64,000 nt of DNA from Paraglaciecola arctica BSs20135. Its GTDB lineage: Bacteria; Pseudomonadota; Gammaproteobacteria; Enterobacterales; Alteromonadaceae. This document shows positions 1 through 15,198 of the stretch, one piece after another; the first letter of the stretch is position 1; each line of letters begins with the position of its first letter. The notes under the pieces are model-generated. The model did no database searches, was not told the origin of the DNA, and saw only the letters and a list, made by a program, of their open reading frames with translations. The stretch is from positions 1-64,000 of the forward strand of contig NZ_BAEO01000024.1 of NCBI RefSeq assembly GCF_000314995.1, given 5' to 3'. A program made the translations under genes and the position numbers.

Positions 1-353
1 TTTCTGTCATTGATTATTCCGTCAGCTTAGGTGAACAAGAGGATTCTTATATTGGGACAGGAAAATCAGTTCGATTTCTAAGTCAAAATGAATTTGATTC
101 TTTTTATCAAATGATACTTAATTCAGGAAAAGATATTTGGGTTCGAGGAAATTCAAAACCTGATTTTGAAAAAAATCGTATGTATATTGAAGGTATTATT
201 ACAGATGAGATACATGCTCAAAGTTTCATTAAAAAACAAAGAGATTGGGTTTTGACTATGCAAAATAAGGAGCCTAAATTATTCGACGCGTTAGTGCATA
301 ATAAAGATCCTGAGTACTGGACTTGGTCGAAATTATCAGATAGCTATAAATAG
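1..353 (+). CDS. C-terminal part of an unrecognised protein
   Basis: The reading frame is open from base 3 to a TAA stop at 351-353 and has no start in the window, so this is the last ~116 residues of a gene that begins upstream. The sequence is rich in charged and aromatic residues (for example WVRGNSKPDF and YWTWSKL near the end). I see no membrane segment and recognise no family motif. It lies 39 bases before the APS-kinase-like gene on the same strand, so it probably belongs to the same surface-glycan operon. Its role cannot be read from this fragment; the upstream sequence would be needed to identify it. Confidence 0.6.
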   Translation, partial: SVIDYSVSLGEQEDSYIGTGKSVRFLSQNEFDSFYQMILNSGKDIWVRGNSKPDFEKNRMYIEGIITDEIHAQSFIKKQRDWVLTMQNKEPKLFDALVHNKDPEYWTWSKLSDSYK

Positions 354-392: not shown

Positions 393-902
393 ATGGTCGT
401 TTGGTTAATTGGTTTATCGGGATCCGGTAAAACAACAATAGGAAGTGCATTTTACCAGCGAGTAAAGTTAAAGAAAGAGGCAACTGTTTTAGTTGATGGG
501 GATGGTATTAGGGCTATATTTAAACACGAATCCTACCATGACTATTCTGTAAACGGACGACGTATCAGTGCTGAGCGACTGCAAGAAATATGTTTGTGGT
601 TAGATAAGCAAGGATTAGATGTGGTTTGTTGTAACTTAGGTATTTTTGATGATATTAATCTTAAAAATCGAGAAATATTTTCTGATTATAGAGAAGTATT
701 TATTGATGTATCGATTGATAAATTAATTGCTCAAGATAATAAATGTTTATATCAATCAGCATTACGCGGTGAACAAACTAATGTAGTAGGCATTGATATT
801 CAATATACACCTCCTTGCTCCCCTGATTTAACCATTAAAAACAGTCAAAAATTAGAGGATGTCAGCAGTTATGTTGATAAAATCATCTCTATTTGTAACT
901 GA
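393..902 (+). CDS. APS-kinase-fold kinase, probable cytidine diphosphoramidate kinase (Cj1415-like)
   Basis: A 169-residue P-loop kinase of the adenylylsulfate kinase (CysC) fold. Walker A GLSGSGKT is at residues 7-14 and a VDGDGIR segment at about 34-40 stands where CysC has its LDGDNVR motif. No sulfate-assimilation genes (cysD, cysN, cysH) are nearby. The neighbours are instead a PEP-synthase-like enzyme, a glutamine amidotransferase and a nucleotidyltransferase. That is the same set as C. jejuni Cj1415-Cj1418, where the CysC-like member phosphorylates the 3'-OH of cytidine diphosphoramidate. Length matches Cj1415 (about 170 aa). The fold is clear; the substrate is inferred from context only, and a genuine APS kinase cannot be excluded from sequence. 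The ATG start follows a GGAG at 384-387. Confidence 0.75.
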   Translation: MVVWLIGLSGSGKTTIGSAFYQRVKLKKEATVLVDGDGIRAIFKHESYHDYSVNGRRISAERLQEICLWLDKQGLDVVCCNLGIFDDINLKNREIFSDYREVFIDVSIDKLIAQDNKCLYQSALRGEQTNVVGIDIQYTPPCSPDLTIKNSQKLEDVSSYVDKIISICN

Positions 903-911
903 GGAAGGAAT

Positions 912-2357
912 GTGAGCGCTTATCCATATTGTAACGGTCCGTTACTTAATTTACCGCAGAGCTACATGTACACACCTTATTTAGGTTTGGGGTTCATCTT
1001 TGATTGGCATAAATCCCGATCTTCTTATCTGACCCAATGCCCTTCTCCTGTCTATCTAGAGCTCCCTTCAAATCCCCTTCATTTAAATGTTCCTGATACT
1101 AGTCAACATTCAACAGAGGATATTTTGGTACAGCTTTGTTTGGATCTCAGAACTGAAGCTAAAATGTCTAAACATGTTGTTTATTGGTTACCGCGGATAT
1201 TAAAAAAATTTGAAGTGAGTAAACGCCTCTATCAATTTTATGGGATTGAAGCACCACACAGAATAGTTAGCGAAAGTAGCTATGACAAATTAGAGCTTTA
1301 TTTACTGCTGGCTGAGTCCCTTATTCGTGCTTGGGCGATAAAGCCAATATCTCAATATATCAATGGATTATTAAAATTAGTAGATACATTGCTCTCGCAA
1401 AAATCGCAGTTGAATAGGAATCAATCGTCACATCTCGGGTGGCTTATTATTGCCGAACAAATGATTTTGGATACAGTTTTGAAGCAGTCTAATTTGAAGA
1501 AAGATAATGCTCATTCGATTGTTAGATTGAAGTGTGATTCACATTCATTTCTTGATTTTACTCAGTCCCTCACTAATAACTCTAATGAGTCACCGGTAGT
1601 TGATGGAACTTATGACGGTAAAATAGTCCTAGAAAAGAGTAAAAAAATACTTCTTTTATGTGGTCATACAACCCGATCTATAGCTTATGTTCAGGCCCTT
1701 TGTAGTGCAAATATTATTCCTTGTCAGATTATTGTCTATGGTACTTCTAAATCAAAATTCACATCAACTAGAACGCATAGCAACGTTTCGATTCAAAACA
1801 TGTTCACCCCAAATTTAGAATTAGATATTTTGCAAAGCCTAGATAATCATGGATTGAAATATACATCAACTGAAGAACAAGAACTCTCAGCTCCTGCTTT
1901 ATTAGCACTAATTAGAGAGGCTGATCCTGATTTAATCATTTACTCTGGATATGGAGGACAACTAGTGCCTGCTTCGATTTTGAGTGAATTCCCTGTATTA
2001 CATATCCATTCGGGTTGGTTACCTGACTATCGAGGAAGCACAACTTTGTATTATCAAATCCTTGATGAAAATTGTTGTGCTGCGAGTGCTATTTTATTAG
2101 ATGAGCAGATTGACACTGGAGTAATAGTTGCTCGTAAAAGGTACCCTATTCCAGAAAAGGGAATTGATGTAGATCATTTGTACGATAGTACAATTCGAGC
2201 TGATCTATTAGTGGAAACATTGAAGCAGTGGTTAGACCCATTTAAACAGTGGAATATAACGACTCAAACAGAAGACTCTTTGCCCTTTTTTATTATTCAC
2301 CCTTTGTTAAAACATTTAGCTCTGTTAAAGATTGATCAAGAGATGATAGATTTATGA
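912..2357 (+). CDS. Formyltransferase-fold protein with an unknown N-terminal half
   Basis: A 481-residue protein starting at GTG 912, nine bases after the kinase stop and preceded by GAGGAAGG. Residues ~1-240 match nothing I recognise. Residues ~245-440 have the Rossmann-type formyltransferase fold of Fmt, PurN and sugar N-formyltransferases: LLLCGHTTRS start, DLIIYSGYGGQLVP, then HIHSGWLPDYRG and DEQIDTGVIV. In the family the catalytic triad is Asn-x-His plus a downstream Asp. Here the His (IHS) and Asp (IDTG) are present but the Asn position is His (HIH). The protein therefore probably uses an altered chemistry or another acyl donor, or formylates a sugar amine poorly. It overlaps the next gene by four bases (ATGA), so the two are translationally coupled. 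It has no counterpart in the C. jejuni phosphoramidate set. Confidence 0.65.
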   Translation: MSAYPYCNGPLLNLPQSYMYTPYLGLGFIFDWHKSRSSYLTQCPSPVYLELPSNPLHLNVPDTSQHSTEDILVQLCLDLRTEAKMSKHVVYWLPRILKKFEVSKRLYQFYGIEAPHRIVSESSYDKLELYLLLAESLIRAWAIKPISQYINGLLKLVDTLLSQKSQLNRNQSSHLGWLIIAEQMILDTVLKQSNLKKDNAHSIVRLKCDSHSFLDFTQSLTNNSNESPVVDGTYDGKIVLEKSKKILLLCGHTTRSIAYVQALCSANIIPCQIIVYGTSKSKFTSTRTHSNVSIQNMFTPNLELDILQSLDNHGLKYTSTEEQELSAPALLALIREADPDLIIYSGYGGQLVPASILSEFPVLHIHSGWLPDYRGSTTLYYQILDENCCAASAILLDEQIDTGVIVARKRYPIPEKGIDVDHLYDSTIRADLLVETLKQWLDPFKQWNITTQTEDSLPFFIIHPLLKHLALLKIDQEMIDL

Positions 2358-4735
2358 GCAATCATCATTCTCAGTTTGTTTTTGGTACTAAATCGGAAAC
2401 ATTAACAAAGCTGCAGCCATTATTAACCCAAGCAAAAATCCTTCCTATTCTTTATTTCTCAGAAGGCGATTGGCGTAGGGATTCCGCTCAAGTTTTAAAT
2501 TCTATCCATGTTTTCTCGCCAGAAAATGACTTAATTATAAGAAGCAGTGCTAAAAATGAAGACGGACATGAAAATTCTATGGCTGGGGCTTTCCTTAGTT
2601 GCCTGAACGTTTCTGTGAATGATGAAGCAGGATTAATAAGCGCAATTGAGCAAGTTATCGATTCATTTAGTGACTTTTCTCAAACAGACAATCAAATATT
2701 GGTCCAACCTATGTTAACCGATATAAATATGTCTGGTGTTCTGATGACTCACGATCTAGAACGCGGTGCTCCATATTACATCATCAATTATGACGATGAG
2801 AGTGGTTTAACCGATACGATTACCGGTGGTATTGGTATACAAAAGACGGTTCTTATTTATCGAGAAACCGAGCTGGAAAAAGTTCACTCTCCTAGAATTC
2901 GTTCACTGTTAAAGGCTTGTGCAGAACTAGAAAATATCTGTGGAAATGTTCCTCTTGATATTGAGTTTGCTATCAATCAATCAGGGATTGTTTATATATT
3001 TCAAGTGCGACAAATTACCTTATTTAATACATGGCATCCGGTTACAGAGAGAAGAGTAGTAAGAACCTTAAAGCATGTTGTAGAATTTATTCAGCAAATA
3101 ATGAAAAGAAAGTCGGGTATTTATGGTGAAAAAACAATATTAGGTGTGATGCCCGATTGGAATCCTGCAGAAATTATTGGTACTACACCTAGACCTTTGG
3201 CTTCGTCACTCTACCGTTACCTTATTACCCAATCTACTTGGCGAGAGTCAAGAGCCGCTATGGGCTACTTTCATCCAAAAAACGAAGAACTAATGTTAAT
3301 GATTGACCATCATCCATATATTGATGTGCGAAATAGTTTTAATTCTTTTCTACCTAATAATTTGTCTAGTAATATAAAAGAGAAGTTACTTAATGGTTGG
3401 ATAACGAGGTTAGATAAATTTCCTGAATTGCACGATAAAGTCGAATTTGAAGTCGTTCAGACATGTATGAATTTCACTTTCGAGCATGACTTTGAAAACC
3501 GCTATAAGGATCTATTAAGTGAAAGGGAGTTTAAGGAATATCACACATCTATTCATTCGTTAACACTTGATGCTTTACTTATGCAAGATAGTGGATCGTT
3601 ATGCCAAGCAAGCATGATGATTGATGAATTGGCCGTTGTGCAGGTATCTCGCGTTTTAAGTCCTACCCCTGAATTATCTGTAGTTCGAGACTTGTTAGTT
3701 TCCTGTCGTGATAAAGGAACTTATCCTTTTTCAATTTTGGCACGTCATGCTTTTATTGCGGAGTCTTTATTACGTTCTGCGGTTGAACGAGGCGCATTGA
3801 GTGTAGAGCGATTGCAAACTTTCAAGCAATCTATTCATACGATTACGACTGATTTGGCTGAGGAATATGGTGAAGTGTGTGATGGTAGTAGAAAAAACAC
3901 GGAATTTCTAGATAGGTTTGGCCATCTGAGACCAGGAACTTATGATATTACATCTCTTCGTTATGATGAACGGAATGACCTGTTTACAGGTTCAGTTCAA
4001 AAGACGATTTTGGATGATAATTGCACATTTAAATTGCACCCTAGTGAACGAGAGAGCTTGCAATTATTGTTAAAAGAAGCCGGTTTTCCAATAGAAGTTG
4101 AAAATCTCATTGAGTATATGCGTAAAGCTATTATGGGGCGTGAATATGCAAAATTTGTATTTACCCGTGACTTGTCGGATGCGCTAGCTGTCTTAACTCA
4201 ATGGGGTGGGAAAGTGGGATTATCTCGAGAGGATCTTTCTTATCTCGATATAACATTATTACTCGATACTTTAACTAATCCACTGCTGGATGATATCGAC
4301 CGAGTTTTACTGAATAATGTAGAGAAAGCTAAACGAGATTGTGAACAAGCAAGGTCTTTAAAATTAGGGCACTTAATCTCAAATCCAGATGGTATTTATG
4401 TCATTCCTCTCCATCGTAGTGTGGCTAATTTTGTTACGGTTGAAACAGTTGAATCCGATGTGGTTGTACTTGATTTAGGTACACCTGCCACTATGGATTT
4501 AAGTAATAAAATAGTATGTATTGAAAATGCTGATCCCGGTTATGACTGGTTGTTTACTAAAGGAATTGCAGGCTTAATCACTCAATATGGAGGTACAAAC
4601 TCTCATATGGCTATTCGCTGTGTCGAGTTTGCTATTCCTGCTGCAATTGGTTGTGGTGAACAGCTATTTTCTCGTATTGTGAAGTCTCAAAAATTGATTT
4701 TAAATTGTCGAGACAAAAAGATTGAGTTGATGTAA
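2354..4735 (+). CDS. PEP-synthase-like phosphotransferase, probable L-glutamine kinase (Cj1418-like)
   Basis: A 793-residue protein with the two catalytic parts of the PEP synthase / PPDK family. The N-terminal ATP-grasp nucleotide-binding domain has LIIRSSAKNEDGHENSMAG at residues ~60-78 (the R-S-S...E-D...S-x-AG signature). The C-terminal swivelling phosphohistidine domain has GGTNSHMA with the catalytic His at about residue 751. There is no C-terminal PEP/pyruvate barrel, which true PEP synthase has after the His domain. This short form matches C. jejuni Cj1418, which uses ATP to phosphorylate the side-chain amide of L-glutamine, giving AMP and phosphate. Its stop overlaps the next start by one base. 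The substrate is inferred from the neighbours; the domain assignment is firm. Confidence 0.78.
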   Translation: MSNHHSQFVFGTKSETLTKLQPLLTQAKILPILYFSEGDWRRDSAQVLNSIHVFSPENDLIIRSSAKNEDGHENSMAGAFLSCLNVSVNDEAGLISAIEQVIDSFSDFSQTDNQILVQPMLTDINMSGVLMTHDLERGAPYYIINYDDESGLTDTITGGIGIQKTVLIYRETELEKVHSPRIRSLLKACAELENICGNVPLDIEFAINQSGIVYIFQVRQITLFNTWHPVTERRVVRTLKHVVEFIQQIMKRKSGIYGEKTILGVMPDWNPAEIIGTTPRPLASSLYRYLITQSTWRESRAAMGYFHPKNEELMLMIDHHPYIDVRNSFNSFLPNNLSSNIKEKLLNGWITRLDKFPELHDKVEFEVVQTCMNFTFEHDFENRYKDLLSEREFKEYHTSIHSLTLDALLMQDSGSLCQASMMIDELAVVQVSRVLSPTPELSVVRDLLVSCRDKGTYPFSILARHAFIAESLLRSAVERGALSVERLQTFKQSIHTITTDLAEEYGEVCDGSRKNTEFLDRFGHLRPGTYDITSLRYDERNDLFTGSVQKTILDDNCTFKLHPSERESLQLLLKEAGFPIEVENLIEYMRKAIMGREYAKFVFTRDLSDALAVLTQWGGKVGLSREDLSYLDITLLLDTLTNPLLDDIDRVLLNNVEKAKRDCEQARSLKLGHLISNPDGIYVIPLHRSVANFVTVETVESDVVVLDLGTPATMDLSNKIVCIENADPGYDWLFTKGIAGLITQYGGTNSHMAIRCVEFAIPAAIGCGEQLFSRIVKSQKLILNCRDKKIELM

Positions 4736-5352
4736 TGATTAATCAGACCACAAAGAAACCAATTATTTTAATTAGCCAGCGAGTTGAACGTCATGAACAA
4801 CGAAATGAGACAAGAGATTCGTTAGATCAGGCGTTAAGTCGATGGGTGGTTGCATCAGAAGCTATCCCAATCAATTTACCAAATACATTATTGCCAGAAA
4901 TGCTAAAGGAGTTATTAGTACAATTAATGCCGACGGGAATTATTCTTTCTGGAGGTAATAATGTTGGTGAGTTTTGTGAGCGTGATAAAACTGAAACAGT
5001 TCTTTTAGATTGGGCGAAATTACAGAATGTTCCTGTTTTAGGGATTTGTCGTGGAATGCAGTTCATTGGTATTTGGTCAGGCACTACATTGGAAAGGGCT
5101 AAGGGGCACGTGGCGGAAAACCATGAAATTTGTGGCGATTTAAACTCCATTGTAAATAGTTACCATGATTATTCTTTAAAAAGTGTTCCCAAAGGGTTTC
5201 GTCCATTGGCCTATGCTCAAGACGGTCATTTAGAAGCCATTACATCTGAAACTGATTGGCCATGCGAAGGCTGGATGTGGCACCCTGAAAGGGATACACC
5301 TTTCGATTTAACATGGTTAACTCGATTTCGTTTATTAATGAGATTAGATTAG
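4735..5352 (+). CDS. Class I glutamine amidotransferase, probable gamma-glutamyl-CDP-amidate hydrolase (Cj1417-like)
   Basis: A 205-residue stand-alone class I glutamine amidotransferase (peptidase C26, PuuD-like). The nucleophile elbow GICRGMQ carries Cys105, and the WHPERD segment supplies His183 and Glu185 of the triad. SGG at ~72-74 would form the oxyanion strand. No synthetase partner domain is present, so it is likely a hydrolase. In C. jejuni the equivalent enzyme cuts gamma-glutamyl-CDP-amidate to glutamate and cytidine diphosphoramidate. The gene starts at the ATG that overlaps the previous stop by one base and ends 7 bases before the nucleotidyltransferase. A generic gamma-glutamyl-GABA hydrolase role is possible but does not explain the context. 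Confidence 0.78.
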   Translation: MINQTTKKPIILISQRVERHEQRNETRDSLDQALSRWVVASEAIPINLPNTLLPEMLKELLVQLMPTGIILSGGNNVGEFCERDKTETVLLDWAKLQNVPVLGICRGMQFIGIWSGTTLERAKGHVAENHEICGDLNSIVNSYHDYSLKSVPKGFRPLAYAQDGHLEAITSETDWPCEGWMWHPERDTPFDLTWLTRFRLLMRLD

Positions 5353-5359
5353 GAAAAAG

Positions 5360-6073
5360 ATGAAAGCATTAATTTTAGCTGCTGGTCGAGGAAGTCGGAT
5401 GAAAGGGCTAACGGAGAATAGCCCAAAATGTTTAGTAAAGTTAAATGGAAAATCTTTACTTACCTATCAATTAACAGCTCTAAGAGAAGCTGGTATTACT
5501 GAAATCGGTATAGTGACAGGATATCGCCGTGAGATGCTTGTATCTTCTGAATTGATTGAGTTTTATAACGAGCGTTGGAATAAGACCAATATGGTATCTT
5601 CGCTTAATTGTGCTTATGAGTGGCTGCAAGCAGACGATTGTATTGTTAGCTACTCTGATATTTTTTATGACGCATCTGCAGTCAACTCTCTAATTGAAGC
5701 GCAAGCTGATATTGCAATTACCTATGATCCAAATTGGTTGGAAATTTGGAGTCGGCGTTTCGAGGACCCGTTATCTGATGCCGAAACCTTCATAATGAAT
5801 GATAAAAATGAATTATGCGAAATTGGTAATCAACCTAAATTAGTTGACCAAGTACATGGGCAATATATGGGGTTATTGAAATTTACGCCTAAAGGATTGG
5901 ATATAATTGCTAAATTGCATCAAGGTCTTTCAGCTGATTTACAAGATAAAATGCACATGACAGGTGCATTGCAGAAAGTGATTGAAAGTAAAGTATTAGC
6001 GATTAAAGCAGTACCTTATTTAGGTCGATGGGGAGAAGTCGATTCTGAAGATGATCTTGCGTGTTATCAATAA
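5360..6073 (+). CDS. NTP transferase, probable CTP:phosphoglutamine cytidylyltransferase (Cj1416-like)
   Basis: A 237-residue nucleotidyltransferase. The N-terminal signature LILAAGRGSRM, then SPKCLVKLNGK, is the G-x-G-S/T-R-M...P-K motif of sugar-phosphate and choline-phosphate (LicC) nucleotidyltransferases. YSDIFYD at ~100-106 supplies the metal-binding Asp. Size matches C. jejuni Cj1416 (about 250 aa), which joins CTP to glutamine phosphate. It is the last gene of the five-gene run, and the following 118 bases separate it from the convergent DUF115 gene. A choline-phosphate or sugar cytidylyltransferase role is the main alternative. Confidence 0.77.
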   Translation: MKALILAAGRGSRMKGLTENSPKCLVKLNGKSLLTYQLTALREAGITEIGIVTGYRREMLVSSELIEFYNERWNKTNMVSSLNCAYEWLQADDCIVSYSDIFYDASAVNSLIEAQADIAITYDPNWLEIWSRRFEDPLSDAETFIMNDKNELCEIGNQPKLVDQVHGQYMGLLKFTPKGLDIIAKLHQGLSADLQDKMHMTGALQKVIESKVLAIKAVPYLGRWGEVDSEDDLACYQ

Positions 6074-6191: not shown

Positions 6192-9100
6192 TTAAATTTT
6201 AGAATCCAATAAATCTAGAACTTTTTGTTTATGTGTATAAAAGTCTGTTTCTGTCATTAATTGAAATATTAGCTGTCTCATTTTTAATGAACCGATTATT
6301 TTTTTTGTTCTGGTACCATTATTTGGTACTTTCTTGGATTGTTGACAATTACCTCTTAGAAACACGGAAATGTAACAACGATTGTCAAATGCTATATATC
6401 TTTCTGCGGGTATATTGAAGACATGTTCTTCCAAATCAATATTTTGTAGAGCCCTGTACTTAGGAAGTATTAGATTACATTTCTGTTCACTAAGGCAGGA
6501 TGAAATCGCGACTCTAGCTAAAAATAATGGACTATCAAATATTTTTTCATTTTTAATCGCTGGTGACTTTAAATATGTAATCCCATTATAATCGAGAGGG
6601 GGGGCTTCATCGGATTTCAAGGTGATTATGGTGTTTCTCTTTCCTAATACGCTGGCATGTTTCAAGTCTTCTAAATGATATATTGCATAATCTGGAGTTT
6701 TTTTATACGAATCTAATTGCTGAGTGCTTAAAAAGTCAATTTTGTTAATCCATGAGAATTCACTATCCAGAATAAATTTCAAACTTTTCGTAAATATTGA
6801 TGAGTCTGTAGCAATTAATATTGAACAATTGCCACAGTGGTTCTCTAGTTTTTTGATTTCTCTTTTAATTATATTGAAAGAGGATACATCAAAATCATCT
6901 TCTTCATTTTCTGTCATTAGGAATTTGATATTTCCAACAGTTTCTAACCATTTTTCTTTTGTTTGGATAAAAGCCTTTGGTACGGATTTGGAGTGCTGAG
7001 GTGTGTTTTGTAACTTACTCAACACTGCATTGGCAAAATTCACCGTCCCATACAAATAATAAAACAATAATGATTTGCCATTTTTATAAGAAGTAAACAA
7101 CATTTCTTTTTGTTTGTTGATTACCCGCTCGATATCTTCTTTGCAGGTCACGTCTTTTTCTAAAAGGGTTTGAAATGCACTTAGTTCTGAAATTAACAGA
7201 TCATGAGAAAACTGTTTTTCAAATCTCTCTGAGTAATTACTGAGTTCTTTAGTTGAAAAGATCTGCGTCTTTAGTTTTTCAACGACTTGTGTTTTTTGAT
7301 TTTCAGTGACTACTATTAACAATTCATCTGGTCTTATAGGCAAGGCGCCTTGGATCTTTGCCCCATCACTGCAGTTGTAAAAATCCTGCCCTTTAGGCTT
7401 TGCGCTGGTCACTTGTTCAATGACTTGCCTAGAGACTTTAAATTCGTGTTTAGTATTGACCCTAGGACGAAAATTTCCAGGTACTATTAAAGAGGTATTA
7501 GCACTCTTAGTAAAGTCATAGGTTTCTTCTCCATCTTCTTGATAATACCCAGATGATTTTGAATGGTGGTGCTTAACATCTACAAAACCGAGATCAACAC
7601 CAATTAAATAAATGCTAGTGAATCCTATAGTGCTGAATAGGTCGATGGCAAAATTACTTACAGTGGGGAAGGCGTTGAGTAGCGTGGTAAAGTTTTCTCG
7701 GCCTAATACACTTAACGCTGATACCGTTGATGATTCACCTTCTTTAAAAGCAATCAAAACATCTTTATATAAATCGCAGGTATCTGGGTGAATGCCGTTG
7801 CAGGATATCAGTGTGATATTTTTTAGGTAGTCTAAGTCGCCTATTAACACTGCCCAATCAAAGGTACTTCTGTTTTGTTCTATTTCGGCATGAAAGTCTG
7901 GCGTAATGCCATGTCTATGTAAGGCTTGTAGCGTGGTTCCACAGCTAACAATAATCGCTTGGCCTTGCCATTCTTTGATGGCTTCAATTGAGCTGTCTAA
8001 TGATGGGCCATTGCCAACAATAAATACCGGTACTTCTTTATCGTCATAACTTAATTGACTTGCAGGGTCTGCCGTTAGAACGGGAATTTTTCGGCGCATG
8101 CCTTCTTTGGTATGGGCAATGCCATAATAGGCATGATCGAAGTATTCGCCCATGGATATCACCACTTGCAACTGCTCTCTGAGCTGAGTGATAGCCGAAT
8201 TTAAAGAGGCGTTGTAGTAACTTTGATAAAAATAGGTGCTATTTAGAATGTAAGGACCAATGGCGTAGAACTGACTTAATAAATCTCTGAATAAATTCGT
8301 ACCGTCGTCGCCAATATTTAAGTAAATACGTGTTTCTGATTTTTCTACGGTTTCGAATATGTTTTGCCAATCGATCGCAAACAACGATGCATAAAAGAAG
8401 TCTGGGTTGGGTTCACATATAAAGAGTTTTTCTACTGTATGTTCTTCAAGTAACTTTTCTAGTTGATAACCCACACCCAAGCCAAACATGATGATTGAGG
8501 GCACATTGTTGGGTAAGGCACCCACTTCTTCTTCGGCTTGTTTAAGTAACTCTTCGGTTTCTTTAACAAATTGGTAATGAATGTAGTGGGCGAGTTTGTT
8601 GCCTTTATAGCCTAGTACTAAGCCATCTTTGTTAGGTTGTTCGTTAAAGTTGTCGAAGTTTAAGGTGCAATCTTGCTTAGGTGATGCACCGTACCATGAG
8701 TGTAAACTGTCAATTTTGACTAAATTAACTTCACCGGCTGTGTTGGCAATGGGTAGCCATTTTTTGGGTTTGTAGTTTTTGTATTCTTTATAGATGTCAG
8801 GAAAATACTTTTTAAATGCTCTGAGGTTGTTGGTCAACTTTTCGTTAGGTGTAACTAATAACGAATGATCCGCTAAGTCTATGTTGGGAGTCCAACTGGG
8901 TAAAAAATCTAAATAACTTTCTTGCGACTTAAGTTTAAAGCCACTTTCTTCAATTTCACTCCAACTGCGCTCGGATAAATCTTTATGTATTGAGTCGAAC
9001 ACTTGATGGTTATAGTGTTTGTACAGATGAAAACTAGAAATAGCGCAGTGCTCAACTAACTCATTGATGTCTTGAAGTAGGTCCCTGCCATCTTTTTCAA

Positions 9101-9734
9101 GTTGCAGAAAAATAGCGGTATTGTGTTCTTTTGCTAAGGTAAAAATGTCTTGCCATGATGTGGTCATAATCGAACATTGGAAGTACTGTAATTCTGGTTC
9201 GTAAATAAGTAGGTTTTTGATTTTGTGGCGTTTTAACAAATGACTTAAATGAATACCTAGTCCACATCCAAGTACTACCAAACATTCAATTTCATAAGGC
9301 ATGGGTTGTTGCTGGTTTCTAAGTTTTACACTTTCTAGTTCTTCAATACTTTTTACTTGGTGAGAATCATCATTATGGCTTGATATAGGTGTTTTAAATA
9401 CAACTTCAGGGCAGTGTTGCTCAATTCGTGATAATTGTTCGAGCACCTCTTCCTCTGGATGAAAACCATAAAAGGTGCGGCCCATACCGTAATCAACAAT
9501 ATTATTTTCACCATATTTATTGATGAAAATAGAATGGTTGGCAAGATTCGGGTTTTGTACATAAGGCAACAAAGAAGGGATGTTACGCTGAAATGTATTG
9601 ATATTGCTTTGGTGAGTGGTGAGTATGTGACTTGCTAGTTTTTCATCAAGCAGCGCTTGTTTTTGTTCATCTTTCTCAATATGTAAACGGATATTCTTCA
9701 GCATACTAACTCTAAACTCGTAATCGACAGGCAC
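6192..9734 (-). CDS. Very large DUF115 / Maf-type putative flagellin glycosyltransferase
   Basis: An 1180-residue protein (1170 if the ATG at 9704 is used instead of GTG 9734; neither has a strong ribosome site). The DUF115 / MptE-like core begins near residue 571 with FIVGNGPSLD and continues through a conserved PDFHAEIEQN stretch, as in motility-associated factor (Maf) proteins that add nonulosonic acids to flagellin. Ahead of it are two similar Rossmann-like segments, LVVLGCGLGIHL near residue 150 and IIMFGLGVGYQL near residue 415. Each is followed by an acidic EP motif and an SxxWQ(D/N)IF element, so the N-terminal domain seems duplicated. That explains a length well above the usual 600-700 aa. 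It is divergent from the flagellin gene, which supports a role in flagellin modification. No signal peptide was seen, so it should act in the cytoplasm. Confidence 0.8.
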   Translation of the reverse strand: MPVDYEFRVSMLKNIRLHIEKDEQKQALLDEKLASHILTTHQSNINTFQRNIPSLLPYVQNPNLANHSIFINKYGENNIVDYGMGRTFYGFHPEEEVLEQLSRIEQHCPEVVFKTPISSHNDDSHQVKSIEELESVKLRNQQQPMPYEIECLVVLGCGLGIHLSHLLKRHKIKNLLIYEPELQYFQCSIMTTSWQDIFTLAKEHNTAIFLQLEKDGRDLLQDINELVEHCAISSFHLYKHYNHQVFDSIHKDLSERSWSEIEESGFKLKSQESYLDFLPSWTPNIDLADHSLLVTPNEKLTNNLRAFKKYFPDIYKEYKNYKPKKWLPIANTAGEVNLVKIDSLHSWYGASPKQDCTLNFDNFNEQPNKDGLVLGYKGNKLAHYIHYQFVKETEELLKQAEEEVGALPNNVPSIIMFGLGVGYQLEKLLEEHTVEKLFICEPNPDFFYASLFAIDWQNIFETVEKSETRIYLNIGDDGTNLFRDLLSQFYAIGPYILNSTYFYQSYYNASLNSAITQLREQLQVVISMGEYFDHAYYGIAHTKEGMRRKIPVLTADPASQLSYDDKEVPVFIVGNGPSLDSSIEAIKEWQGQAIIVSCGTTLQALHRHGITPDFHAEIEQNRSTFDWAVLIGDLDYLKNITLISCNGIHPDTCDLYKDVLIAFKEGESSTVSALSVLGRENFTTLLNAFPTVSNFAIDLFSTIGFTSIYLIGVDLGFVDVKHHHSKSSGYYQEDGEETYDFTKSANTSLIVPGNFRPRVNTKHEFKVSRQVIEQVTSAKPKGQDFYNCSDGAKIQGALPIRPDELLIVVTENQKTQVVEKLKTQIFSTKELSNYSERFEKQFSHDLLISELSAFQTLLEKDVTCKEDIERVINKQKEMLFTSYKNGKSLLFYYLYGTVNFANAVLSKLQNTPQHSKSVPKAFIQTKEKWLETVGNIKFLMTENEEDDFDVSSFNIIKREIKKLENHCGNCSILIATDSSIFTKSLKFILDSEFSWINKIDFLSTQQLDSYKKTPDYAIYHLEDLKHASVLGKRNTIITLKSDEAPPLDYNGITYLKSPAIKNEKIFDSPLFLARVAISSCLSEQKCNLILPKYRALQNIDLEEHVFNIPAERYIAFDNRCYISVFLRGNCQQSKKVPNNGTRTKKIIGSLKMRQLIFQLMTETDFYTHKQKVLDLLDSKI

Positions 9735-9765: not shown

Positions 9766-9970
9766 AGTACTAAAAAAAGAATAAGTCTTTGAATTTATTG
9801 TGAGAAGTTAATGTTATTTAGTTATGTCAGAGGGTTTATTGATAGTGGCCTGATTGAGTTTTAATCTATAACTATGTATTGCTTTTTATACCTTTATTGG
9901 CGTTGCTTATATTTTACACACTCATGGACACTCTGCTATTATACCAAGCAGGTAAATGAGGAAAAAACAT

Positions 9971-10774
9971 ATGATTAGTTTTAACACTGAATCAAATACA
10001 TCGTTGTTACAACAAGTTCAGAACAAGCAAGAGTCTATTCTCGAGAAGCTTTCTTCTGGTAAAAAAATTAATAGTGCGGCTGATGGCGCGGCTGCGCAGC
10101 AGATCATTGATCGTTTGACCACACAAGTTGAGGGTAACCGACAAGCTATTTCTAATGCTTACGATGGCGTTTCTTTGACTCAAGTTGCTGAAGGTGGCTT
10201 GTCTGGAATTAACGAAGACGTTAATAGGATCCGTGAACTGTCTATCCAAGCGGGTAACGGCATATTGAATGATTCGGATCGACAGGCAATTCAAGCCGAG
10301 GTCACGCAATTACAAGAAAATATTTCCCAAACCATTGAGCAAACTGAGTTTGCTGGCAAACCTTTGTTATCGGGCGACGGTAATATTGATTTTCAAATAG
10401 GTGCTAACGCTGGCCAGAAAATTGGCGTGGGTACGCAAGATGTTGCGGCCGGTTTGAGCGATATTCTTAATGTTGATTTAAGTTCGGCTCAAGGTGATGA
10501 AGATGCCTTGGCTGCGGCTGATGCTGCTTCAGAGTTTGTAGGTAATGCGCGTACCGATTTAGGTGCTACACAAAATCAATTTGAAAGTGCGGCGCGAAAT
10601 CTAACTCAATCTGATATTAATGTTTCAGCAGCCAGAAGCCGAATTCAAGATACTGATTATGCACAAGCTGCTTCTGAAAGTGCTGCCGCTGACATACTGA
10701 GTCAAACTAGTTTGGCTGTGCAAGGCATGGCAAATCAACAACAAGGTCAGGTGCTGTCTTTGTTAAATGGTTAA
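9971..10774 (+). CDS. Short atypical flagellin
   Basis: A 267-residue flagellin with both conserved ends (D0/D1) and almost no variable centre. N-terminal SSGKKINSAADGAAAQQI and C-terminal SRIQDTDYA are the flagellin signatures; it ends VLSLLNG. The first residues (MISFNTESNTSLL) differ from the usual MA-L/I-x-V-N-T-N start, and the C-terminal tail is also unusual. The ATG at 9971 is chosen over the in-frame ATG at 9956 because GAGG at 9958-9961 is a good ribosome site for it. The gene stands alone between the divergent Maf-type gene and flrA, followed by a strong terminator. fliD, fliS and flaG, often found here in relatives, are absent. I could not find a convincing sigma-28 or sigma-54 promoter in the 236 bases upstream. 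Confidence 0.85.
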   Translation: MISFNTESNTSLLQQVQNKQESILEKLSSGKKINSAADGAAAQQIIDRLTTQVEGNRQAISNAYDGVSLTQVAEGGLSGINEDVNRIRELSIQAGNGILNDSDRQAIQAEVTQLQENISQTIEQTEFAGKPLLSGDGNIDFQIGANAGQKIGVGTQDVAAGLSDILNVDLSSAQGDEDALAAADAASEFVGNARTDLGATQNQFESAARNLTQSDINVSAARSRIQDTDYAQAASESAAADILSQTSLAVQGMANQQQGQVLSLLNG

Positions 10775-10972: not shown

Positions 10973-12412
10973 ATGAGCAATATTTTGATTATTAGTTCTG
11001 ACATAGCGCGGGCAAATAATCTGAGTACTATTCTGACCTTTCTTGGCGAGCCTTGTAGCAGCGTTTTATATACTTCTGCGATAGAAACTCTTAGAGACAA
11101 AATAGATATCAAAGCTGTTTTAATTGATGCAGATACACACGAACTAGCTTGCGATATCAGTGAAAAATTTCCTCATCAACCTTTTGTATTGGTTGGAGAC
11201 TATGAAACCTTTGAACCAAAGACAAATATTGTCGGCGCCATAAGTGAACCTATTACTTACCCTGCATTGACTCAAATGTTACACCGTTGCCAAGAGTACA
11301 AACGCAGCCAGCCCAATACCAAGACCAGCGTTCACAACAAAACCCGTCTATTTAGGAGCTTGGTTGGAAAAAGTAAACAAATTCAGGGTGTTAGACATTT
11401 AATTGAGCAAGTGGCTCCAACCGAGGCAAATGTTCTTATCCTTGGCGCGTCAGGCACAGGTAAAGAAGTGATTGCTCGTAATGTACATTTTTTATCTAAT
11501 CGCACTGACAGTATCTTTATCCCAGTAAACTGTGGTGCTATACCTGGTGAACTGCTCGAAAGTGAGCTGTTTGGTCATGAAAAAGGGGCCTTTACTGGTG
11601 CTATTAGTTCGCGAAAAGGGCGTTTTGAACTGGCGGAAGGCGGTACCTTATTTCTTGATGAAATTGGTGACATGCCATTACAAATGCAAGTTAAACTGCT
11701 GCGTGTATTACAAGAGCGAACCTACGAAAGGGTAGGTGGTACCAAACCCATTAAATGCAACGTAAGAGTTATTGCAGCCACTCATCGTAACCTAGAAATT
11801 ATGATCGAGGATGGGCAGTTTAGAGAAGACTTGTACTACCGTTTAAACGTATTTCCAATTGATAGCCCTGCATTGTGTGACCGAAAAGAAGACATTCCAT
11901 TATTACTTCAAGAGCTGGTATCGAGACTCGAGTTAGATAACTCACAAATAATGTTTACTGCTAACGCTATGGCCTCTCTGATGGAACACAAATGGGCGGG
12001 CAATGTTCGCGAATTATCGAATTTGGTTGAGCGTTTGATGATTTTATACCCTAATCAACTTATAGATGTAAGTGATTTACCCAGTAAGTATAAACATCTT
12101 GATGTTGAAGATTATGAACCCGATTACCCTGAAGAATTGTTAGAGCGTGACGCTATTAACGCTATGTTTGGTGGTGATAGTAGTGACGACGATAATGAAG
12201 AGGTTAATAATAGCTTCGATAATGTGTTATCGACTGAGTTGCCCGTTGACGGGCTAAATTTGAAAGAATACATTTCAGATTTAGAAGTTAATTTGATCAC
12301 TCAAGCCCTAGAACAACAAGATTGGGTGGTCGCCAGAGCGGCTGAAGCTCTTGGTATGCGTCGTACCACTTTGGTTGAAAAAATGCGTAAGTACAATATT
12401 AGTAAAGATTAG
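10973..12412 (+). CDS. flrA: FlrA/FleQ, sigma-54-dependent master flagellar regulator
   Basis: A 479-residue activator. Residues 1-110 form a FleQ-type receiver-like domain. The AAA+ domain has Walker A GASGTGKE at 158-165 and the sigma-54 contact loop GAFTGA at 205-210. A Fis-type helix-turn-helix ([19 protein letters not shown]) closes the protein. It sits at the head of the cluster and should activate the sigma-54 promoters in front of flrBC, fliE, fliK and flhA. The ATG has GGAAGTGGA just upstream. The spacer of 198 bases from flagellin includes the flagellin terminator, so flrA has its own promoter. Confidence 0.95.
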
Positions 12413-12582: not shown

Positions 12583-13842
12583 ATGGGTACTAGTAACATC
12601 TTGATTGAAGCATCGCGTGACTCCTTGTCTGCGCTTGGCGAAGTGGTTAGGCATGACGCGTTAAAGAAAGCGTCACATGGATCTAACACTCAAGAATTAG
12701 ACGCACTGCGTTTGCAAGCTAATCGTTTGGAGCATTTGCTACAAGTTATGCCCGCGGGAGTTGTGGTGATAGATGGTAAAGGATTTGTCAGACAGTCAAA
12801 TAATCTGGCTAAAGCTTTATTAGGTGAGCCTTTGGAAGGCCAACAATGGCGAACCATTATCGCTCGTTCATTTAAGCCCCAAGCTGATGATGGACATGAA
12901 GTCTCATTGCATGATGGACGTAAAGTCAAACTGTCGATAACACCTTTAGAAAAAGAACCTGGGCAGCTTATTGTACTCACTGATTTGACCGAAACTAGGC
13001 AATTACAGCAACGTATTGGACATTTACAAAAGTTATCTTCATTAGGAAAAATGGTAGCGTCATTGGCACACCAAATTCGTACGCCTTTGTCGGCAGCTAT
13101 GTTGTATGCGGCGAATCTGTCCAACAGCACCTTAAATAAAACTTCCCGTGAGAAGTTTAGTCACAAACTTGTTTCAAGATTGCGAGACTTAGAAAGCCAA
13201 GTAAATGATATGTTGTTGTTTGCCAAAAGTGGCGACGAACAAGTGATAAGTGAAATATCACTACAAAGCTTAATGCAAGAAGTACAGCAAGGTGCTGATG
13301 CCATGTTGCAAAGCCAGCAAGCTAGGTTAGTACTTTCTTTACCCGAGCCTGATGTTGTTATTTTGGGTAATAAAACCGCGTTAGCCGGAGCCTTACAAAA
13401 TCTTATACACAATGCGTTAACCGTTAAACCGCAAAATGCGCTGATTAAAATTGCTGTGAATCGCCAAAAAAACAACCCTGATTGGGTGGATTTATCTGTC
13501 ACAGACAACGGTCCTGGCATTAAAACTGAAAATCTAAATCGAGTTTTTGAACCTTTTTTCACTACTAAAAGTAATGGTACTGGATTAGGCCTAGCAGTGG
13601 TTAGGAGTGTTGCTCAGTCCCATCAAGGCAAGGTTCATGTGACCAATTCAGCTGAAGGTGGTGCCTGTTTTACTTTGTGTTTACCCACTTATGATGACAG
13701 ACAATCACCACATCAAGTGACTGTCTCAACACACCAAGCCATTGAACCAACAAAACAAGCCATTGCGCCAACAAAACAAGCCATTGCGCCAACAAAAAGT
13801 GTGCAGCCTCAACAATATTTTGCCGATGCGGCGGGGAGCTAA
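12583..13842 (+). CDS. flrB: FlrB, flagellar sensor histidine kinase
   Basis: A 419-residue soluble histidine kinase. A PAS-like region is at ~45-140 and the dimerisation/phosphoacceptor motif ASLAHQIRTPLSAA places the His at residue 163. The N, G1 and G2 boxes (NLIHNAL, DNGPGIK, GTGLGLAVV) follow in the ATPase domain. No transmembrane segment, so it senses a cytoplasmic cue, as FlrB/FleS does. It phosphorylates FlrC, whose gene follows after 3 bases. The last ~35 residues contain an AIAPTKQ-type tandem repeat encoded by 21-base DNA repeats, outside the catalytic core. Confidence 0.95.
   Translation: MGTSNILIEASRDSLSALGEVVRHDALKKASHGSNTQELDALRLQANRLEHLLQVMPAGVVVIDGKGFVRQSNNLAKALLGEPLEGQQWRTIIARSFKPQADDGHEVSLHDGRKVKLSITPLEKEPGQLIVLTDLTETRQLQQRIGHLQKLSSLGKMVASLAHQIRTPLSAAMLYAANLSNSTLNKTSREKFSHKLVSRLRDLESQVNDMLLFAKSGDEQVISEISLQSLMQEVQQGADAMLQSQQARLVLSLPEPDVVILGNKTALAGALQNLIHNALTVKPQNALIKIAVNRQKNNPDWVDLSVTDNGPGIKTENLNRVFEPFFTTKSNGTGLGLAVVRSVAQSHQGKVHVTNSAEGGACFTLCLPTYDDRQSPHQVTVSTHQAIEPTKQAIAPTKQAIAPTKSVQPQQYFADAAGS
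13735..13797 (+). repeat. Three tandem 21-base repeats inside flrB
   Basis: Unit CAAGCCATTGCGCCAACAAAA. Copies lie at 13735-13755 (two mismatches, GCG to GAA), 13756-13776 and 13777-13797. They are in frame and encode QAI(A/E)PTK in the non-catalytic tail of FlrB, so copy-number change would only alter tail length. Confidence 0.95.
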
Positions 13843-13845
13843 AGT

Positions 13846-15198
13846 ATGAGTCAAGCTAAAGTATTGATAGTAGAAGACGACGCAGGCCTAAGAGAAGCTT
13901 TAGTCGATACATTGTTGCTGGGTGGTTATCAAGTTATTGAAGCCGACAGTGGTGAACAAGCCATGGTTAAGTTGTCTGAACAAGCCGTTGACTTAGTAGT
14001 GAGTGATATACAAATGGGCGGTATGAGCGGTTTAACATTGCTCAAGAATATAAAAAACAAATATCCTAATTTGGCCATATTATTAATGACAGCTTACGCG
14101 ACTATTGATGATGCTGTGCAGGCAATGCGAGATGGCGCAACCGATTACCTATCTAAACCTTTTGCTCCAGAAGTGTTACTTAATTTGGTTGGCCGTTATG
14201 CGCCGGCACAAAAAGTAGAATCACGTACACCAGTAGCAGATGATCCTAGCAGCTTACAGCTACTCGCTTTGGCCAAAAAGGTGGCTAGATCAGAAGCAAC
14301 TGTCATGGTCTTAGGGCCTAGCGGATCGGGAAAAGAAGTCTTAGCCCGCTATATTCACGACCAATCTAACCGCAGCCAACAAACCTTTGTGGCTATCAAC
14401 TGTGCCGCTATTCCAGAAAACATGTTAGAAGCGACACTTTTTGGATACGAAAAAGGGGCATTTACCGGAGCAATACAAGCTTGTCCAGGTAAGTTTGAAC
14501 AAGCCCAAGGTGGCACCATTTTACTCGATGAAATTAGTGAAATGGACTTAAATCTTCAAGTTAAATTATTACGTGTTCTGCAGGAAAAAGAAGTCGAAAG
14601 ACTAGGTGGTCGTAAAACCATTGCACTGGATGTCAGGATCATCGCAACCAGCAACCGTAACTTAAAGCAAACCGTAGATGCAGGCGAATTTAGAGAGGAT
14701 TTATACTATCGCCTAAATGTGTTCCCACTTACTTGGTTGCCTCTTGATAAAAGAGGTGGTGATATTATTCCGTTAGCCGAACATTTAATCGAACGTCATT
14801 GCCAAAAACAAGGCTGCGAAATATCAAAATTGACTGCAGCCGGACGCAGTAAACTGTTACAACACAACTGGCCTGGTAATGTGCGAGAATTAGAAAATGT
14901 GATCCAGCGTGCCTTAATTTTATCTGATGGAAATCAAATTGATGCCCAAGACTTAATGATTGAGCAAGATACATCGGTATTGGCTCAGGCACCTCGGCTA
15001 GATTTTGAAAACATTGAAGAAGATAACAGCAAATTAGGGTCAGAATTGCGTCAGCAGGAGCATCAAATCATTCTTGATACCTTGCAAAGCTGCAAAGGTC
15101 GTCGCAAAGATGTGGCTGAACGGTTAGGCATAAGCCCTAGAACCTTACGTTACAAACTCGCCAAAATGCGTGAAGTAGGTATCGAACTTCCTGCATAA
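13846..15198 (+). CDS. flrC: FlrC, sigma-54-dependent flagellar response regulator
   Basis: A 450-residue NtrC-type regulator. The receiver domain has phosphoacceptor Asp54 in VVSDIQMGG. The AAA+ domain has Walker A GPSGSGKE near 154-161 and the GAFTGA loop. A C-terminal Fis-type helix-turn-helix is ERLGISPRTLRYKLAKM. Partner of FlrB; once phosphorylated it activates later flagellar sigma-54 promoters. The start follows GGGGAGCT at a good distance and the gene is coupled to flrB with 3 bases between. A terminator follows 35 bases after the stop. Confidence 0.95.
   Translation: MSQAKVLIVEDDAGLREALVDTLLLGGYQVIEADSGEQAMVKLSEQAVDLVVSDIQMGGMSGLTLLKNIKNKYPNLAILLMTAYATIDDAVQAMRDGATDYLSKPFAPEVLLNLVGRYAPAQKVESRTPVADDPSSLQLLALAKKVARSEATVMVLGPSGSGKEVLARYIHDQSNRSQQTFVAINCAAIPENMLEATLFGYEKGAFTGAIQACPGKFEQAQGGTILLDEISEMDLNLQVKLLRVLQEKEVERLGGRKTIALDVRIIATSNRNLKQTVDAGEFREDLYYRLNVFPLTWLPLDKRGGDIIPLAEHLIERHCQKQGCEISKLTAAGRSKLLQHNWPGNVRELENVIQRALILSDGNQIDAQDLMIEQDTSVLAQAPRLDFENIEEDNSKLGSELRQQEHQIILDTLQSCKGRRKDVAERLGISPRTLRYKLAKMREVGIELPA

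Follow-up and report, generated by a model that had tools for sequence, protein, structure and literature searches.

The window, that is, the whole stretch of 64,000 nucleotides of Paraglaciecola arctica BSs20135 DNA analysed here, opens with a compact gene cassette on the forward strand, followed by a Maf-type glycosyltransferase gene and a flagellin gene. An earlier note on this DNA had described these two downstream genes and four enzyme ORFs upstream of them, and all six were found in the places given. It had also described the cassette as tightly packed, which holds for five genes and not for four: the note had missed an ORF of 481 amino acids at 912–2357, and because this ORF lies between them, the kinase and the PEP-synthase-like gene are not adjacent. 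The gaps in the five-gene series are 9, –4, –1, and 7 bases. A sixth gene, cut by the contig start, was also absent from the earlier note. The features are listed below.

3–353, + strand: 3′ part (116 aa) of a cut ORF; the fragment matches neither Pfam nor NCBIfam families
393–902, + strand: APS-kinase-like kinase, proposed CDP-amidate 3′-kinase, Cj1415-like (Pfam, NCBIfam, tree)
912–2357, + strand: fused helical domain (residues ~1–190) and formyltransferase-fold domain (~240–481), with HxHxG replacing NxH (alignments, predicted models)
2354–4735, + strand: ATP-grasp and phosphohistidine-domain enzyme (GLNK), proposed glutamine kinase, Cj1418-like (Pfam, NF004508)
4735–5352, + strand: class I amidotransferase-fold hydrolase (GAT), proposed gamma-glutamyl-CDP-amidate hydrolase, Cj1417-like (Pfam, NCBIfam, alignment)
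5360–6073, + strand: MobA/NTP-transferase-like nucleotidyltransferase (NTP), proposed phosphoglutamine cytidylyltransferase, Cj1416-like (Pfam, PDB match)
6192–9734, – strand: Maf-type flagellin glycosyltransferase (PF20157, 392.6 bits)
9956–10774, + strand: short divergent flagellin (family search)
10973–12412, 12583–13842, and 13846–15198, + strand: three flagellar-regulator-like genes (translations), which we take to be FlrA, FlrB, and FlrC, named by eye only

The remaining 5′ part of the cut gene (202 aa) belongs to another contig of this genome, C17. Its homologue at L018:6116–7060, which is 46% identical, matches Methyltransf_15 at E 0.036 only, below the cut-off, a faint hint of a methyltransferase. 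HMM comparison gave no support for the cut gene as a PF04464 transferase. A scan for promoters and terminators gave no signals above those of shuffled sequences.

In Campylobacter jejuni, Cj1415–Cj1418 belong to the pathway for the O-methyl phosphoramidate (MeOPN) group of the capsule, with Cj1421 and Cj1422 as the transferases, and cj1418-1417-1416 run in this order. The window encodes enzymes of the same four kinds, as judged by family models. The 2354–4735 protein carries PPDK_N and PEP-utilizers domains and scores 951 bits against NCBIfam NF004508 (cut-off 501), a family of which Cj1418 itself is presumably a member. Pfam gave no match to a pyruvate/PEP-barrel family at E 0.01; the protein has the GLNK-type architecture, an ATP-grasp and a phosphohistidine domain without the barrel, and identity as a PEP synthase was rejected. 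The phosphohistidine site reported earlier, GGTNSHMA, is present, and His751 is invariant in the 11 proteins aligned.

The 4735–5352 protein is a Peptidase_C26/GATase member whose proposed catalytic residues, Cys105, His183, and Glu185, do not vary among 39 aligned amidotransferases (65 were found). Its best NCBIfam model is that of the gamma-glutamyl-CDP-amidate hydrolase (NF045546), which all 39 match; at 85 bits, it does not reach the equivalog cut-off of 250 bits. The nucleotidyltransferase at 5360–6073 is MobA-like according to Pfam and passed no specific NCBIfam model. Among PDB sequences, a CTP:phosphocholine cytidylyltransferase matches it best (E 3e-13, a stretch of 60 residues). The NTP profile was built from 57 of 67 sequences. 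Of 14 long GLNK ORFs, 7 include such an NTP domain as a fusion.

The kinase at 393–902 scores 82.5 bits against Pfam APS_kinase and 139 bits against NCBIfam NF004041 (cut-off 127), and general CysC models also match all 44 cassette kinases examined. The tree sets these 44 (of 52; five of at least 260 aa and three of L042/L072 were left out) apart from 11 true CysC proteins in separate clades with support of 100/99. The window kinase thus lies outside the clade of the same genomes' CysC, and a true APS kinase was ruled out. A separate CysC-type protein is encoded in 10 of 11 cassette genomes, and the host genome has one; the cassette-type kinase is absent from 3 of the 11. The earlier note had named grouping of the kinase with true CysC enzymes as a refutation of its proposal, and the tree shows no such grouping. 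The proposal of a phosphoramidate operon is partly supported, by the kinase and by the flagellar setting described below, and not by the amidotransferase at equivalog level.

The earlier note had suggested a search upstream of base 1. This search led to contig C17, the contig most likely abutting the window start, which carries flagellar genes including flgK/L-like genes, four flagellins, and PseBCFGHI. PseB, C, F, G, and H are above their NCBIfam cut-offs, and the island holds the only NeuB match of the genome. Pse biosynthesis genes, Maf, and flagellin are thus combined in one region, given the C17/C49 adjacency, which is deduced from one gene split between contig ends. These genes on the abutting contig place the cassette inside a flagellin-glycosylation island, most likely with flagellar genes on both sides. 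The island also encodes two LicD-family proteins (PF04991, 52.5 and 38.9 bits, cut-off 22.6), a KpsS-like protein (PF05159), and CmcI-type and C-methyltransferases. A 632-aa protein encoded upstream appeared GT-B-like by eye only; as a distant PF04464 relative it was dismissed, with an hhalign probability of 0.3 percent.

The case for a flagellar setting goes beyond what the earlier note could draw on, owing both to the probably abutting contig and to recurrence in other genera. Ten other cassette genomes of the order were found, by the PEP-synthase-like gene only, and in 5 of these a flagellin lies within 22 kb of the cassette (0.36 expected, P about 5e-6), with such proximity seen in several genera. 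Four of the 10 have no flagellin on the contig of the cassette. For the Pseudomonas locus L026, in a search of the genomes of named loci that covered 30 of 80 loci, the nearest flagellin-type match is apparently about 310 kb away. The acceptor is therefore not always a flagellar glycan. Only 7 of the 90 loci retrieved have flagellar genes close to the cassette, and sugar genes for FdtA, DegT, or NeuB occur in many. With the window, these 90 give a set of 91 loci, retrieved by way of the GLNK family, in which L022 and L029 are apparently the same contig counted twice; as the 91 include cut contigs, absences weigh less than presences. Since L024–L103 are the best 80 of at least 540 relatives, the shares hold for the closest relatives of the window rather than for the whole family. 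None of these 80 is a Campylobacter record.

The gene that the earlier note missed encodes a fused protein. In the predicted model, its C-terminal 243 residues resemble E. coli Fmt (1fmt) with a VIA Z score of 19.7 over 211 residues (rmsd 3.5), which places this domain in the formyltransferase fold shared by sugar N-formyltransferases and methionyl-tRNA formyltransferase. The Asn of the formyltransferase NxH motif is catalytic. Unlike those enzymes, the window protein has HIHSG in place of the Asn-x-His motif; of 39 family matches, 37 have His where the Asn would be, and Asn is kept in the other two (27 of the 39 sequences were used in the alignment). The helical domain of 200 residues is modelled at a pLDDT of 89.8 (alignment of 17 of 33 sequences). 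Its best Foldseek E is 0.099, and its best VIA Z score, 10.3, to glycosidase/epimerase-type helical folds, falls in the range rated unspecific by the tool when models are helical.

The formyltransferase-fold gene is found in 37 of the 91 loci, and the 18 loci with methyltransferase cluster 6 all lack it, an exclusion whose hypergeometric value of 2e-5 overstates the case because cluster 6 was chosen post hoc. The states of the two changed at least nine times on the GLNK tree. Beside methyltransferase cluster 18, the gene is present in 6 of 10 loci; clusters 6 and 18 together overlap with it in 6 of 28 loci (P 0.011), and the cluster 6 profile has weaker matches in two loci that carry it. The window cassette holds no gene of cluster 6 or 18. 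The idea that the formyltransferase-fold protein strictly takes the place of methylation was rejected, given the co-occurrence with cluster 18 and the methyltransferases in the island.

Compared to the Campylobacter MeOPN pathway, the window cassette shows several differences. It lies in a flagellin-glycosylation island and not in a capsule locus, it includes the HxHxG formyltransferase-fold protein with its helical domain, and its kinase gene comes first, whereas an excerpt of PMC3907429 places cj1415 downstream of cj1416. Given that placement, the GLNK-GAT-NTP order of the window fits cj1418-1417-1416. The same excerpt reports that 4 of 13 Campylobacter strains with the genes gave no MeOPN signal (PMC3907429). 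The flagellar glycosylation island types of Aeromonas, as set out in part of PMC7874193, likewise combine pse genes, Maf, and flagellins with variable modification genes between them, among which methyl-, acetyl-, and phosphotransferases are named; the terms kinase, amidotransferase, nucleotidyl, phosphoenolpyruvate, and formyl are absent from its main text. For Aeromonas piscicola AH-3, this source reports a +80 Da group and a 284.1 ion; by our mass sums, these fit phosphate and not phosphoramidate, which ruled out AH-3 as ready evidence of phosphoramidate.

We consider it likely, judging from the sequence, that the cassette encodes a variant phosphoramidate-donor pathway that would feed a flagellin glycan via CDP-amidate and its 3′-phosphate. 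Built on the gene content, families, order, island context, and recurrence observed above, the proposed reactions, acceptor, transferase, and capping would be as follows. The 2354–4735 enzyme would phosphorylate the amide nitrogen of glutamine from ATP via its phosphohistidine; the 5360–6073 enzyme would couple the N-phosphorylated glutamine to CMP from CTP; the 4735–5352 enzyme would take off glutamate to give CDP-amidate; and the 393–902 kinase would add the 3′-phosphate. A transferase encoded in the island would then attach the P-N group to a sugar of a pseudaminic-acid-based flagellin glycan. CDP-activated phospho-groups are used by CDP-glycerol glycerophosphotransferases (PF04464) and by LicD phosphocholine transferases (PF04991). 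The candidates are the two LicD-like proteins of the island or the 632-aa protein just upstream. Among 24 loci that have the kinase together with the formyltransferase-fold gene, the gene immediately upstream of the kinase comes from a PF04464-containing cluster in 10; the neighbour of the kinase in the window itself is not PF04464-like. The formyltransferase-fold protein would probably cap or transfer the P-N group. A bolder version, in which this HxHxG enzyme and its new helical domain define a second phosphoramidate branch, acylating or transferring the P-N group to give an undescribed group on the flagellin glycan, is doubtful.

Other readings share much of this evidence. The phosphoramidate donor could serve a cell-surface polysaccharide, either O-antigen or capsule, having sugars in common with the flagellar island, as the cassette genomes of the order without a flagellin on the same contig, the scarcity of flagellar genes across the 90 loci, the frequent FdtA, DegT, or NeuB genes, and the KpsS-like protein would suggest; the Maf gene, the probable flagellar flanks, and the recurrent proximity to flagellins in several genera make this rather unlikely. 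About as unlikely is a related but different pathway, with another phosphorylated amide activated or the product differently capped, so that the end group is not that of Campylobacter. The amidotransferase score and the distribution of the formyltransferase-fold gene relative to cluster 6 speak for it, while the company that cluster 18 keeps with that gene, the joint overlap of both clusters, and the weaker cluster 6 matches weaken the second point, and the core families, like the fusions, are in line with the Campylobacter set.

That housekeeping enzymes (a PEP synthase, a CysC, a glutamine amidotransferase, and a sugar nucleotidyltransferase) came together by chance is suggested by the general Pfam names only. 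This reading, which also conflicts with the missing PEP barrel, is highly improbable, and was rejected on the co-occurrence of GAT and NTP in 59 of the 91 GLNK loci, the separate CysC of the genome, and the kinase tree.

The likely flagellar phosphoramidate pathway suggests that P-N tags like that of Campylobacter occur more widely than assumed, and perhaps on flagella. In the excerpts of open-licence literature searched, no phosphoramidate or glutamine-kinase set beside flagellin genes was found outside Campylobacter; a paper on the Clostridium botulinum flagellar island was discarded as a precedent, the part at hand naming phosphoramidate only in a reference title, and an excerpt of PMC9561416 speaks of a "jejuni-specific glutamine kinase." Should flagella carry the group, it would be worth re-examining flagellin mass spectra at high resolution, as phosphoramidate adds 78.98 Da and phosphate 79.97 Da by our own sums. 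Rare P-N chemistry would also be tied to motility and perhaps to phage binding. In Campylobacter, MeOPN has been linked to phage binding. For the late steps, the formyltransferase-fold protein with its altered motif provides a concrete candidate enzyme.

Relatives of GLNK, the key kinase, are encoded in at least 540 genome stretches from bacteria and archaea; within one order, they lie repeatedly near flagellins. Among mobile elements, 14 of 72,556 plasmid records carry a relative of the kinase, and one was found among 73 candidate stretches of viral contigs.

The cassette at the start of the window is best read as a phosphoramidate-donor pathway serving a flagellin glycan, a reading that, judged from sequence, we favor with moderate confidence when both parts are taken jointly. 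The window begins at base 1 of contig C49, in a draft genome of 5.96 Mb, and the genes concerned are as follows.

3-353, cut gene preceding ATK
393-902, plus strand, ORF of ATK, the APS-kinase-like kinase
912-2357, plus strand, ORF of a 481-aa protein between ATK and GLNK
2354-4735, plus strand, ORF of GLNK, the PEP-synthase-like protein
4735-5352, plus strand, ORF of GAT, the class I amidotransferase-type protein
5360-6073, plus strand, ORF of NTP, the nucleotidyltransferase

The earlier note described four tightly packed enzyme genes; these are present and closely packed (gaps along the cassette of 9, -4, -1, and 7 bases), but a fifth gene, at 912-2357, had been overlooked. Family searches found both neighbors placed just downstream of NTP, a Maf glycosyltransferase on the opposite strand and then a flagellin. 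This flagellin (9956-10774) is short and divergent (272 aa, 99 bits to Flagellin_N) and stands apart from the four main flagellins; a stray flagellin of similar score lies on the far side of the cassette in another genome of the family, G204 (C1:352998-353396). The G+C content is 34.5-37.6% in the first 10 kb versus 41-44% in the following 10 kb, as in an acquired island.

The families present make the phosphoramidate-donor chemistry probable. GLNK carries PPDK_N and PEP-utilizers domains, with no pyruvate-barrel domain reported by the Pfam search, and belongs to NCBIfam NF004508 (951 bits, cut-off 501), a family that we take to include Cj1418. At its proposed phosphohistidine site, a GGxNSHM block with His751 is invariant in all 11 aligned family members, as are the MPDWNPAE and HLRPGTY blocks. 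Of the NCBIfam models, the gamma-glutamyl-CDP-amidate hydrolase model NF045546 matches GAT best, with 85 bits, far below the equivalog cut-off of 250. In the 39 GAT relatives examined, of 65 found, this model is always matched and the proposed triad Cys105, His183, and Glu185 is always retained.

The family name of ATK carries little information (NF004041, 139 bits versus a cut-off of 127), because general CysC models also match all 44 relatives examined. The possibility that it is a true CysC is opposed by the kinase tree, in which 44 cassette kinases separate from 11 CysC proteins of cassette genomes (support 100/99), and the CysC blocks DGDN, ENIRR, and AFISP are altered in the cassette kinases displayed. 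CysC-type proteins (at least 210 bits) occur in 10 of 11 cassette genomes and cassette-type kinases (66-109 bits) in eight.

Linkage was counted over the window and 90 loci collected by the GLNK family, including the best 80 of at least 540 relatives. GAT is found in 65 of these 91 loci and NTP in 67, with 59 holding the two together; ATK occurs in 51. Among the 14 GLNK ORFs that exceed 930 aa, seven have an N-terminal NTP domain; these fusions are in L014, L015, L076, L089, L093, L097, and L099. The Campylobacter genes presumably run cj1418-1417-1416. The order GLNK-GAT-NTP fits this, since one account places cj1415 downstream of cj1416 (PMC3907429); compared to that set, the kinase of the window cassette is shifted to the front. 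No Campylobacter records are among the best 80 of at least 540 loci, and the likeness to Cj1415-Cj1418 is one of families and gene order. The cassette would be a variant of the known pathway, differing in its location, its formyltransferase-fold partner, and its wide distribution.

Given this chemistry, a flagellar acceptor is probable. With a homologue as query, the cut gene is recovered in two pieces, its 5′ part on the minus strand of contig C17 at base 5 and its 3′ part on C49 at base 6; the single gene is divided as C17:5-565 and window 3-353, with few homologue residues uncovered. The two contigs thus very likely abut, and the window most likely continues C17 read in reverse. The look upstream of base 1 that had been proposed was made in this way and met flagellar, Pse, and LicD-family genes. 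C17 encodes flgHIJKL-like and FliD-like genes (assigned by eye), four flagellins, PseB, PseC, PseF, PseG, and PseH above NCBIfam cut-offs, the sole NeuB match of the genome, CDP-glucose genes (TIGR02623 and TIGR02622 above cut-off), an ordinary NxH formyltransferase, CmcI-type methyltransferase(s), C-methyltransferases, and a KpsS-like protein. With this content leading into the window, the cassette is most likely flanked on both sides by flagellar genes.

C17 also encodes two LicD-family proteins and a 632-aa protein that matches no known family and has relatives close to the cassette at L018, L021, and L035. These three are transferase candidates by position and, in the case of the LicD-like pair, because LicD proteins use CDP-activated groups. 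The two LicD-family genes adjoin each other (L108:13359-15422, minus strand). Elsewhere, a protein cluster that includes a PF04464 protein (CDP-glycerol glycerophosphotransferase family) has a member encoded directly 5′ of the kinase in 10 of 24 loci with kinase and formyltransferase-fold gene; three of these genes have weak TarF/TarB matches only and one has none. No gene of this cluster type lies immediately upstream of the window's kinase.

A search of the order's 295 genomes finds NF004508 in 11, the window's included; it is absent from the single same-genus genome listed. In six of the 10 other genomes the nearest same-contig flagellin is 12.3, 13.9, 13.9, 20.1, 21.5, or 39.5 kb away, and in four the contig has none; five are no more than 22 kb away, where 0.36 would be expected (P 5.4e-6, treating genomes as independent). 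Flagellar genes lie within about 10 kb at seven of 90 loci (L019, L020, L028, L030, L032, L034, L038). The glycans served by the cassette are presumably of more than one kind, since the closest flagellin-type match at L026 is apparently some 310 kb off and many loci are surrounded by other sugar genes.

A predicted model (pLDDT 91.1; Z 19.7 to 1fmt) gives the C-terminal part of the 912-2357 protein a formyltransferase fold. The Asn of the NxH motif is replaced by His (HxHxG) in 37 of 39 family members and kept in the other two. Residues 1-190 form a helical domain with no Pfam match in the window or L018; present in 33 of 91 loci, it is stand-alone, joined to the kinase (L057, L069, L101), or, in the window, L030, L032, and L049, joined to the formyltransferase-fold part. 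The formyltransferase-fold gene, found in 37 of 91 loci, tends to occupy the place of one methyltransferase family: it is in none of 18 loci carrying methyltransferase cluster 6 (hypergeometric 2e-5, too strong a figure given that the cluster was chosen post hoc), with at least nine changes of state on the GLNK tree. It is not a general substitute for methylation, because cluster 18 accompanies the gene in six of 10 loci, clusters 6 and 18 combined overlap with it in six of 28 (P 0.011), and the cluster 6 profile has weaker matches in two loci having the gene.

GLNK relatives and GAT genes also occur in archaeal metagenome assemblies (L100, L103), where binning errors are possible. A GLNK relative is carried by 14 of 72,556 plasmids (e.g., NZ_CP140104.1 and NC_016588.1), four of them predicted conjugative, with a GAT match beside it in 10 of 10 among those listed.
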